DNA of 64,000 bases from Prolixibacteraceae bacterium (GTDB lineage Bacteria; Bacteroidota; Bacteroidia; Bacteroidales; Prolixibacteraceae): assembly GCA_019459485.1 (NCBI GenBank), contig JAIBEZ010000095.1, forward strand, positions 1-64,000. The letters are read 5' to 3'. This document shows positions 4,543-7,517 of the stretch, one piece after another. Position 1 is the first letter of the stretch; each line of letters opens with the position of its first letter. The position numbers and the translations under genes are program-made. Under the pieces are notes generated by a model. It saw only the letters and a program-made list of their open reading frames with translations, searched no databases and had not been told where the DNA came from.

Positions 4543-4710
4543 GAACTCGCCATTAATCATTCTGCTATGTTCGGAAACTTTCTAATGGCTCGTTTCATCA
4601 CTTATTTTTCTGATCGATGCCAAAAATAACCATTTAAAACAGAAGATGCGTTTTATAGTTTTTTGTTTGACCAAAAATTAACAATTTTGCCCGGCACAAA
4701 ATATATTCAG

Positions 4711-5100
4711 ATGATTTCAAATTATTTACTTGGCCTAACCAGTATATCGCAATGGGGATTGTTCTCAGGAATTGCTTTAATTATTTTTGGTTGGGTCGAA
4801 AAACGGGAAAAATTGATCCTTGCCGGACAACTGGCGTTTGTACTTATCGGAATAATGGCAGCCTGGATACTCTTAAACGACCTGATTTATGTACCGGAAA
4901 TCACTGATAGTAATATTCCAAAACAACTCAGGGTGATGGCTTATTTTAAAGGCGTGACTGCATTTATGGGATTAGCCGTTATTTCCATTTTGCTGAAATT
5001 ATTCAAACTTCGCTTTCAGAAGGCCAGTGTTTATATTCTGATATTTTTTGCACTTGTGCTGTTTTTTATGGTATTCAACATTCAGCAGATGGCAAACTGA
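4711..5100 (+). CDS. Small integral membrane protein, four hydrophobic segments, unknown function
   Basis: From the ATG at 4711 this encodes 129 residues. The frame is open from a TTG at 4663, but the 16 extra residues are polar and the ATG is followed at once by the first conserved-looking segment, so 4711 is preferred. Four hydrophobic stretches alternate with short charged loops (WVEKREK; YVPEITDSNIPKQLR; KLFKLRFQKAS), predicting a four-helix inner-membrane protein. I do not recognise the family. It stands alone, divergent from the uvrB operon, and is followed by a stem-loop at 5125-5157. No regulatory signal was recognised upstream. Confidence 0.7.
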   Translation: MISNYLLGLTSISQWGLFSGIALIIFGWVEKREKLILAGQLAFVLIGIMAAWILLNDLIYVPEITDSNIPKQLRVMAYFKGVTAFMGLAVISILLKLFKLRFQKASVYILIFFALVLFFMVFNIQQMAN

Positions 5101-5124
5101 GAACTTATCAATAGTCATAAAAAA

Positions 5125-5157
5125 AAAGATACCGCGGGAACAAACCACGGTATCTTT
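5125..5157 (+). terminator. Probable rho-independent terminator after the four-helix membrane protein
   Basis: A perfect 10-bp stem (aaagataccg / cggtatcttt) with a 13-base loop, 25 bp after the stop codon at 5100. The stem carries its own A- and T-runs, so it could work in either direction. A second perfect 8-bp inverted repeat (ttctgcaa / ttgcagaa, 5183-5190 and 5199-5206) follows 26 bp later. Confidence 0.7.
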
Positions 5158-5370
5158 AATAATTTAATAATTTTTGAAAACCTTCTGCAATTTTCCATTT
5201 GCAGAATAAAAGAGAAAACCCTAAAAATTCAACAATTGAGTATATAAAAAACCAAAGCGTTATAGTCGTATAAAATCTCTAAGCTTATCAAATTAAACCC
5301 CTCATTTATTTGAAATAAAAGGTTGTTTGAATCGACTCAACAAATCTACAGCTACAATCTTAATTTATCG

Positions 5371-5443
5371 GTTAGAGGATGGTTAGAAAGTTATTAGAAA
5401 ATCATTAGAATTACTTCATGTTGATAATTGTGTCGTAGTTTTG
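5371..5443 (+). promoter_or_regulatory. Four 11-bp direct repeats and a -7 box upstream of the response regulator gene
   Basis: Four consecutive 11-base units start at 5371, 5382, 5393 and 5404 (gttagaggatg, gttagaaagtt, attagaaaatc, attagaattac), each beginning with (g/a)ttaga. Eleven-base direct repeats on one DNA face are the classic binding pattern of OmpR/PhoB-type response regulators, and the next gene encodes one. The array ends at 5414. A perfect Bacteroidetes -7 box TAGTTTTG follows at 5436-5443, so the repeats occupy the place of the missing -33 TTTG, as expected for an activator-dependent promoter. The predicted transcript would start about 5450, 18 bases before the TTG start codon. 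Autoregulation is inferred. Confidence 0.7.
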
Positions 5444-5467
5444 TCACAAAAATAAACAGCACTAATT

Positions 5468-6157
5468 TTGGGAACACATATTTTAATCGTTGAAGACGAA
5501 TTGCGTCTTGCCGAAATTCTTCAAAAACAGTTACAGGAATCTGGTTTTAAAGTAGATATAGCCAATGACGGATACGTTGGAAAAAGAATGATGGAGAAGA
5601 AAGATTACGATCTCATTGTTCTCGACATCAATTTGCCATTGATGAATGGATATGAGTTGTGCAAGGAGATCAGAAAAAAGAACAGCAAAATACCCATTAT
5701 CATGCTTACTGCCCTGGGAACACCTGATAATAAACTGATTGGTTTTGAGGCAGGTGCCGACGACTATGTTTTAAAGCCATTTGATTTCAGAGAGTTACTT
5801 GCCAGGATCAATGTATTCCTAAAACGAAAAAATATAGTTTTACCAGATTCGCGAAAATTAAATATTGCTGACTTTGAAATGGATCTGGATACAAAGACAG
5901 CCTCCCGTTCAGGAAAAAAGATTGATTTGACATCGAAAGAATTTGCACTGATGGAAACTTTTCTTGTAAACAAGGATAAGCTTTTATCGCGCGAGTTTAT
6001 TATTGAAAAAGTGTGGGATTTGGATTTTGAAACTGGCACAAACATTATTGATGTCTATGTAAATTATCTGCGAAAGAAAATCGATAAGGATTTTGAGCCC
6101 AAGATTATCCACACTAAATTTGGGTTTGGATTTTATTGCAGCGAAAAGGAATTATGA
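5468..6157 (+). CDS. OmpR/PhoB-family response regulator
   Basis: A 229-residue DNA-binding response regulator. The receiver domain (residues 1-120) has the acidic pair Glu9-Asp10, phospho-acceptor Asp53 (IVLDINLP), Thr81 and Lys103 (VLKPFDF). A winged-helix output domain follows (about 130-225), with the family's recognition segment VDVYVNYLRKKI and the C-terminal wing GFGFYC. Translation must start at the TTG at 5468 or the ATT just before it, because an in-frame TAA lies at 5453-5455 and the fold begins at residue 4. The histidine kinase gene starts 1 bp after its stop, so the two are co-transcribed. Target genes are unknown, but the tandem repeats just upstream suggest it controls itself. 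Confidence 0.95.
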   Translation: MGTHILIVEDELRLAEILQKQLQESGFKVDIANDGYVGKRMMEKKDYDLIVLDINLPLMNGYELCKEIRKKNSKIPIIMLTALGTPDNKLIGFEAGADDYVLKPFDFRELLARINVFLKRKNIVLPDSRKLNIADFEMDLDTKTASRSGKKIDLTSKEFALMETFLVNKDKLLSREFIIEKVWDLDFETGTNIIDVYVNYLRKKIDKDFEPKIIHTKFGFGFYCSEKEL

Positions 6158-6158
6158 C

Positions 6159-7517
6159 ATGAACATCAAAACGCGGTTATCCATACAGTTTACTTTTGTA
6201 GTAATCGGAATTTTGATTTTCTTCTCCGCTTTGGTTTACTATTTTTCATACACTACCCAACGTTCAAAATTCAGGGAAAATCTTTTAGAAAAGGCTCAAA
6301 ACACCGCCATTCTTTTAATTAACGTTGAAGGAATTGACTCCACATTGCTAAAAAAAATCCACCAGGCAACCAGGTCGTTCGTGGAGGAGGAAATTGCGCT
6401 GACAGATTCTTCCAACAATGTCATTTACAGTAACAATTCACATTATCTGTCAGATAAAGTTATTCTCGAGAAATCATACCAGTCAAGTCCAAACTATTTT
6501 TCAATTGGCGAGAAAGATGGTGTCAGTTACAATCACACCATAGAAAACAAAAGGTACACTGTTTATGTGCTGGCCTATGACAATTCTAGAGCCGAAAGCT
6601 TAATTGAAATGCGAACTATTTTATTCTGGAGTATTCTTTTTAGTGTTTGGCTTTCAATTACGGCATCCTATTTCTTTTCAAAACTGGCCATAAGGCCAAT
6701 ATCAAATATCATATCCCAGGTAAAAAACATCAACTCATCAAAGCTAAACAGCCGGTTAAACGAAGGTCACCGAAAAGATGAAATTGAGCAATTGGCCATC
6801 ACTTTCAACCAAATGCTGTCGGATCTTGAACTTGTTTTCAAAAGTCAGAATGAATTTGTTTCAAACGCATCACACGAATTGCGAACACCTTTTGCCATCA
6901 TGATTGCTGAATCTGATTATATTCTCGGGAAAGAGCACAAGGCGGAAGAATACATGAAACACATTTCGGGAATGGTGGATGACCTCCGTAAACTCAATGC
7001 ATTGTTGAACGCCCTATTGGAAATGGCTCAGCTAAACCGCAAAAATCAGGTCATTTTATCACCCATACGAATCGACGAACTGATATTTAATACGATACAA
7101 TCTTTAAAAGCAAAATATCCGGGAAGAAAAATAATGCCCAAAATAGAATACCCTGACAATGAGAACGATCTGGTAATCACCGGAAATGCGGGATTGCTTG
7201 AAATTGCTATCAAAAACCTGATTGACAATGCCTGCAAATTTTCGACTAACGATGTGGAAGTTAAAATTGGGAGCAGTTCCGAGAATTTGACCCTGATCAT
7301 TTCTGATCAGGGAGTCGGGATTCCTGAAAATGAATTAGATACGATTTTCAAACCATTCCAGCGCGGTACAAATGTAAGGTACATTGGAGGTTTTGGAATT
7401 GGACTTTCCATTGTTGCAAAAATTATTGAACTTCACAATGCTGAAATGCAGGTGAAAAGTGTTGAAAAAGAAGGCACACAAGTAGAAATACGTTTCAGGA
7501 ACACTGCTGTTCAATGA
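6159..7517 (+). CDS. Sensor histidine kinase partner of the response regulator
   Basis: From the ATG at 6159 (1 bp after the regulator stop) this encodes 452 residues. An upstream in-frame start at 6093 would overlap the regulator by 65 bp and adds residues unlike a signal anchor. Order: TM1 (about 9-31), a periplasmic sensor of about 120 residues, TM2 (154-173), HAMP linker (175-228), HisKA with phospho-acceptor His239 in SNASHELRTP, and HATPase_c with N-box NLIDNACKFS, G1 DQGVGIPE and G2 GGFGIGLSIV. It is a membrane kinase of the RprX/CusS-like class that phosphorylates the neighbouring regulator. The signal cannot be read from the sensor domain, which has no recognised fold. Confidence 0.95.
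   Translation: MNIKTRLSIQFTFVVIGILIFFSALVYYFSYTTQRSKFRENLLEKAQNTAILLINVEGIDSTLLKKIHQATRSFVEEEIALTDSSNNVIYSNNSHYLSDKVILEKSYQSSPNYFSIGEKDGVSYNHTIENKRYTVYVLAYDNSRAESLIEMRTILFWSILFSVWLSITASYFFSKLAIRPISNIISQVKNINSSKLNSRLNEGHRKDEIEQLAITFNQMLSDLELVFKSQNEFVSNASHELRTPFAIMIAESDYILGKEHKAEEYMKHISGMVDDLRKLNALLNALLEMAQLNRKNQVILSPIRIDELIFNTIQSLKAKYPGRKIMPKIEYPDNENDLVITGNAGLLEIAIKNLIDNACKFSTNDVEVKIGSSSENLTLIISDQGVGIPENELDTIFKPFQRGTNVRYIGGFGIGLSIVAKIIELHNAEMQVKSVEKEGTQVEIRFRNTAVQ

Follow-up and report, generated by a model that had tools for sequence, protein, structure and literature searches.

Within a 64,000-nucleotide stretch of DNA from a Prolixibacteraceae bacterium (hereafter the window), four 11-bp direct repeats stand immediately ahead of the gene for an OmpR/PhoB-type response regulator, raising the question of what this array controls: the adjacent regulator-kinase operon only, a second unit on its other side, or a wider set of genes. 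The features on which the argument draws are as follows, in window coordinates:

5116-5257, minus strand: modelled conserved part of the RNA
5119..5156, minus strand: RNA terminator, a 12-bp hairpin with a T run after it, and with 6/12 pairs changed on both sides
5119..5336, minus strand: predicted divergent transcript of ~218 nt, a candidate small RNA (sequence-based prediction)
5184..5205, minus strand: RNA hairpin UCUGCAA...UUGCAGA, 7 pairs, every lettered cell paired
5211..5218, minus strand: CU-rich motif UUUUCUCU, of which UUUUCUC is invariant in 13/13 aligned rows
5341..5348, minus strand: divergent -7 box TAGATTTG (CAAATCTA on the plus strand), separated from the operator by 22 bp, with +1 predicted at ~5336
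5371..5414, plus strand: candidate operator, four 11-bp units of RTTAGA plus 5 bp, by direct reading of the sequence
5436-5443, plus strand: -7 box TAGTTTTG for the operon of regulator and kinase, a perfect TAnnTTTG 21 bp past the operator, predicted +1 at ~5448
5468..6157, plus strand: response regulator of OmpR/PhoB type (Response_reg and Trans_reg_C)
6159..7517, plus strand: sensor histidine kinase (HAMP, HisKA and HATPase_c)

The four units (5371-5414) read GTTAGAggatg, GTTAGAaagtt, ATTAGAaaatc and ATTAGAattac, placing TTAGA half-sites at 5372, 5383, 5394 and 5405, i.e. at a pitch of 11, 11 and 11 bp. The pair motif TTAGA-N6-TTAGA is matched three times in the 64-kb window, every time inside the array, against a mean of 0.09 matches in dinucleotide shuffles, 0/100 of which contained three or more. 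The four repeats described in an earlier note on this DNA are thus real, with an exact pitch; the span given there (5371-5443) is correct, but leaves the left half of the promoter outside it.

Conservation was assessed at orthologous loci, defined by a kinase match at E<=1e-110, for which 21/140 family genomes qualify; 20 of these 21 have a readable promoter, that of G007 being cut at a contig end. The 21 promoters compared comprise these 20 and a partial locus in G014, located via the array itself, where the regulator matches over residues 4-70 only and no kinase was found. Five promoters outside the genus were likewise first located via the array, and the kinase search independently gave the same five and no others. 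All 21 promoters examined contain the four-unit array, and its retention at 20/20 readable orthologous promoters of the family leaves the proposal unrefuted on the point of conservation in relatives. RTTARA accounts for 80/84 half-sites over the 21 promoters (counted by eye), the exceptions being CTTAGA in G015, ATTAGC in G110, ATTAGG in G117 and CTTAAA in G091. Mean pairwise identity of the operator is 0.87 (78 pairs from the 13 species that carry the RNA described below) as compared with 0.45 at fourfold sites of the regulator gene, the alignment somewhat inflating this and the other noncoding identities given here. Tandem sites built from 7-bp motifs and 4-bp spacers are described as bound by a member of the OmpR/PhoB family as tandem dimers, with sites of three or four motifs bound more tightly than those of two (PMC4832192). 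From its sequence, the array is probably the conserved landing site of the system's own regulator; taken alone, the operator is an unremarkable example of a familiar kind.

Both PF00072 and PF00486 match the regulator above gathering, and no Pfam family was found for the sensor region of the kinase. The best whole-protein NCBIfam model for the regulator is that of the heavy-metal CusR/CztR/SilR regulators (TIGR01387, CztR/SilR/CopR), yet its 232.1 bits lie below the curated cut-off of 279.2; the best model for the kinase, the partner model of this heavy-metal pair, gives 171.8 bits against a cut-off of 292.55. The CusR site is a palindrome, in contrast to the direct repeat found here. By sequence, the closest solved relative of the regulator is 1kgs chain A (E 2.8e-50), and three matches at 90-96% identity lie on MAG contigs. 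Translation of the regulator is read from a TTG codon at 5468; at 5465-5470 of the window an ATT, aligned by eye with the ATG of the relatives' regulators, precedes this TTG, and a non-ATG start seems common to six genomes (the window's, G002, G012, G018, G021 and G001).

The perfect -7 box reported at 5436-5443, ahead of the regulator gene, reads directly as TAnnTTTG. A rightward TAnnTTTG lies 20-21 bp past the array in 18/21 promoters and is imperfect in G015, G161 and G091, whilst in 20/21 the start of CAAANNTA, whose minus-strand reading is TAnnTTTG, is exactly 30 bp ahead of the array, G091 being the sole promoter of the 21 without a divergent box. The resulting layout is near-symmetric, the operator being separated from the leftward -7 box by 22 bp and from the rightward one by 21 bp. 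The usual spacing between -33 and -7 elements is 17-23 bp; by reading of the window, there is neither TTG nor TTTG at -33 spacing for the rightward box and no TTG for the leftward one, the TTG nearest to the rightward box (5421-5423) being 12 bp away. Judged as Bacteroidota sigma-A promoters, both directions accordingly present a perfect -7 box and lack a -33 element, the operator abutting its place. That the repeats replace the -33 box, as the earlier note had it, is therefore a fair description of the layout, although replacement as such goes beyond what the layout demonstrates. TAnnTTTG is the consensus reported for F. psychrophilum, where the box occupies -12 to -5 (PMC9723704), and the predicted +1 sites assume this same position; the array then spans -77 to -34 relative to the predicted rightward start and -78 to -35 relative to the leftward one. 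The leftward box stands 22 bp from the other edge of the array in 20/21 promoters, and the array therefore most likely serves as one operator for both directions of a divergent promoter. All of its half-sites point rightward, and the two promoters face them in opposite orientation; with half-sites in one direction, joint activation of both promoters is not required, and it is possible that one is activated whilst the other is repressed or less activated.

A wider regulon, which the earlier note had predicted through the motif TTAGA-N6-TTAGA, was rejected as stated there, since motif matches never rose above controls in the window's own genome or in the genus. In the own genome, that motif gave 8 matches (3 of them in this array) compared with 17 for a reversed control, and a three-repeat form allowing <=3 mismatches gave 19 compared with 42, this locus being the only one at 0-1 mismatches. 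Across 23 genus genomes, a composite of the array and the rightward -7 box (<=1 mismatch) found this promoter in 13 and 2 places elsewhere, against 15 for the control. The corresponding composite of the divergent box and two half-sites, at 0 mismatches, found this promoter in 16/23 genomes and one further place (G011:C1:33002); at <=1 mismatch it gave 100 matches against 138 for the control in the 23 genomes, i.e. no signal of a wider regulon. Among 77 more distant CusR-like loci (L063-L139), TTARA-N6-TTARA occurs within 220 bp upstream in five (L063, L082, L108, L113 and L119), and the half-site is therefore not general among CusR-like regulators. The most economical reading of these sequence searches is that the system is a local circuit, controlling itself and one small output.

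Arrays of related appearance were seen elsewhere. At L211 (G064:C53, ~66240-66277), in another genus, four TTAGA half-sites at 11-bp pitch stand ~33 bp upstream of an operon for OEP, CusB-type HlyD and AcrB-type efflux proteins, which is possibly a target of a related regulator. TTAGA/TTCGA arrays of 11-bp pitch also occur at unrelated places, i.e. L213 (G006:C49, where the array is followed by an inverted copy), L214 (G016:C16) and other sites in G006; these look like a repeated element and not an operator of this system.

Regulator-kinase pairs paralogous to this one, with 36-40% kinase identity within the genus, were found near NhaD-like or NhaA genes at L042, L051, L054, L055, L056 and L059 (NhaA at L054), and several of these antiporter-adjoining pairs have a divergent small membrane protein. 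The NhaD-like genes score below the TIGR00775 cut-off and above that of NF038006; one follows the orthologous pair in G112 (L207). An NhaD antiporter was considered as a target and set aside, since the 4.2 kb surrounding the NhaD-like gene of the window's own genome contain no TTARA-N6-TTARA pair. To the left of the promoter the window encodes a predicted membrane protein of 145 aa (4663-5100, plus strand) without a family match. A relative of this protein lies beside the pair, within the fetched region, at 12/14 other genus loci, the exceptions being G006 and G020; in G018 it is set apart from the pair by a paralogous pair and an NhaD-like gene.

What the leftward promoter would transcribe differs between relatives. 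In eight of them (G009, G014 and G015 of the genus, and five genomes spread over three other genera) the leftward unit opens with an ORF of 33-40 aa, whose product has one strongly hydrophobic stretch (top 19-residue Kyte-Doolittle mean 2.5-3.3) and one predicted membrane helix; neither of the two small proteins compared with Pfam gave a match. Among the 23 genus genomes the small protein is found at E<1e-11 in G009, G014 and G015 only, and the G009 protein as query found nothing at E<=0.5 in 13 other genus genomes, the window's included, in a search that reaches close relatives only and also misses the small proteins of the paralogous pairs in, for example, G011, G022 and G002, genomes in which such pairs have a small membrane protein of their own. 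At L208 (G117) the leftward unit holds a tandem pair of different one-helix ORFs, the second of which is similar to the ORF listed first for G112.

In the 13 species of the window's clade the same position is taken by a conserved block predicted to form a structured RNA. Mean pairwise identity (78 pairs) is 0.79 in the RNA core and 0.90 in its hairpin, and the core exceeds the fourfold sites in 78/78 pairs. The core hairpin reads UCUG(C/U)AA..UUGCAGA across species (UUACAGA in G013), one pair being C-G, U-G or U-A according to species and the remainder nearly invariant. Hairpin and terminator together have 99.6% of cells paired, 6 two-sided pair changes and a covariation score of 0.258, each of which was reached by 0/500 shuffles, and the number of pair types by 25/500; all six two-sided changes sit in the terminator, the core hairpin being too invariable to show any. 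The fold z-score is -4.37 (142 nt of the window, including the terminator). A covariance model recovers each of the 13 genomes at E<=6e-12, having been built from the same 13, and gives weak matches at the same place in small-protein genomes (G015, E 0.003; G009, 0.005; G014, 0.07) and weak second matches in G017 (E 0.14) and G001 (E 0.29). At E<=0.01 and with stricter filters, the model found nothing outside the genus in the 140 family genomes. In Rfam, window positions 4600-5600 gave 10 matches, all below gathering, the lowest E being 0.0009 (SurA, plus strand, 22.6 of 100 bits). No description of the array, the RNA or the small protein was found in the literature consulted, nor, in one search, anything related on small RNAs of Prolixibacteraceae. 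By sequence, the unit has its own promoter, an intrinsic terminator and conserved sequence and structure, and the leftward product of the window's clade is most likely a regulatory small RNA. Duplex energies between this RNA and the start of its own regulator mRNA were not below those of shuffles (z between -1.9 and +0.6 across the 13 species).

The leftward transcript might instead still encode a micropeptide, with the core as coding sequence (...GFSLL.CKESCR...). Counting ATG, GTG and TTG starts, the longest ORF of the unit measures 17-45 aa depending on which of the 13 species is taken, with ATG ORFs running across the core in the close relatives G003 (31 aa), G011 (38 aa) and G017 (28 aa), and in 9/13 species one hydrophobic frame crosses the core without a stop (G000, G002, G012, G018, G022, G006, G021, G001 and G011). 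Against this, the frame stops or shifts register in G003, G017, G020 and G013, yet three of the four keep the letters of the hairpin as they are, and in G013 these differ but still pair; conserved anchors are not spaced by multiples of three across species; and in G000 the open frame has neither ATG, GTG nor TTG. The longest ATG ORF was reached by at least 11/200 shuffles in each of the 13 species (tightest in G011, at 38 aa), although this test is weak, since even a genuine protein, that of 33 aa in G009 and G015, is reached by 30-31/200. We therefore regard a surviving micropeptide as improbable, and the leftward RNA of the window's clade as likely noncoding on the pattern of its sequence change.

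A different objection is that the array serves the rightward operon only, the leftward box and block being remnants of a lost gene or a terminator shared with the gene to the left. Indeed 13 species have no small protein at the locus, and the terminator hairpin lies just past the 145-aa gene, which it could also end. Yet all 13 species retain the divergent box after loss of the protein, the RNA core (0.79) is better conserved than either the fourfold sites (0.45) or the adjoining 5' half of the transcript (0.36), and in G006 and G020 the block stays with the promoter despite different left neighbours, i.e. without the 145-aa gene; an operator confined to the rightward operon thus appears unlikely. 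The array might also be bound by another regulator, such as that of a paralogous pair, in place of the adjacent one, since an operator of two related units, GATTAAAGAACGATTAAA or close to it, is seen at paralog loci 28 bp past a divergent CAAANNTA (the strict pattern matched 5/10 loci, with no match in the remaining 5/10). However, G000 keeps the array with no paralog at E<=1e-60, and the array accompanies the ortholog in every family genome with a readable promoter, making a foreign regulator very improbable.

The distribution of the two states was placed on a tree of regulator and kinase (21 rows, G014 left out and G007 unlabelled), in which two of the outgroups sit on long branches and support for the deepest forks is weak. 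The 13 RNA species lie on one side of a single branch (support 92/92, and found in 90% of 200 bootstrap trees), corresponding to one change of state. All eight genomes outside this clade with a readable leftward unit carry the small protein, and a protein-first order is therefore the simpler reading. With somewhat less than even confidence, we suggest that a one-helix protein gene became a noncoding regulatory RNA once, in place, with operator, -7 box and terminator kept, and that this RNA may be the system's only recognisable target besides itself in this genome.

Our preferred explanation, with a probability of roughly 0.65, is that the array is the operator of the adjacent regulator amid a divergent promoter, the leftward unit of which encoded a small protein and became a structured RNA in the window's clade. 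The array and its geometry and conservation, the alternation of small protein and RNA and the conservation of the RNA core are features of the sequences themselves. The kinase, in response to a presumed signal, would phosphorylate the CusR-like OmpR/PhoB regulator, which would then occupy the 44-bp array, whose four head-to-tail half-sites would have room for two tandem dimers, one beside each promoter. So bound, the regulator would adjoin both promoters, standing where a -33 element would, and could alter transcription, presumably by activation rather than repression, of its own regulator-kinase operon rightward and of the small leftward unit. Ancestrally this unit would have specified the 33-40-aa one-helix membrane protein; in the window's clade the protein would have been lost and the unit would yield a structured RNA of ~218 nt with its own terminator, likely regulatory and putatively acting as RNA on targets of its own. 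One array with a fixed geometry on both sides points to a regulator, to the site of that regulator and to one divergent target. If the product of the unit does differ in this way, RNA for 13 species and membrane protein for eight, the locus offers a natural series, laid out on a tree, for the passage from a small-protein gene to a regulatory RNA with control unchanged.

Several known systems bear comparison. GibS of Bacteroides thetaiotaomicron, also of the Bacteroidota, is a conserved small RNA of 145 nt whose targets are shown experimentally (PMC7366714), whereas the RNA here is predicted and tied to a two-component operator, the likeness being one of kind. In the dual-function RNA SgrS/SgrT, as described in PMC4021124, a small ORF lies 5' of a conserved RNA segment that precedes an intrinsic terminator, the promoter is intergenic and beside a regulator gene, and the ORF occurs in 'most' homologs. 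No homology is claimed with this system of another phylum; here control would be by a two-component system, the RNA is predicted from sequence, and the species with the ORF are not those with the conserved core, the small-protein species matching the RNA model weakly (E 0.003-0.07). MgrB with PhoQ and ScrA with SaeS are small membrane proteins feeding back on kinases (PMC10746255, PMC12239555); the locus resembles these in that a gene for a one-helix protein adjoins a two-component system and apparently shares its operator, but differs in that such a role would be conjectural for the small protein, which was not found in the window's clade. The tandem operators of M. tuberculosis PhoP and E. 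coli PhoB (PMC4832192) are likewise direct repeats of 11-bp pitch, and binding of the same kind is predicted here; unlike those operators as described there, the present array lies between two divergent -7 boxes at matching distances and is built on the half-site RTTARA.
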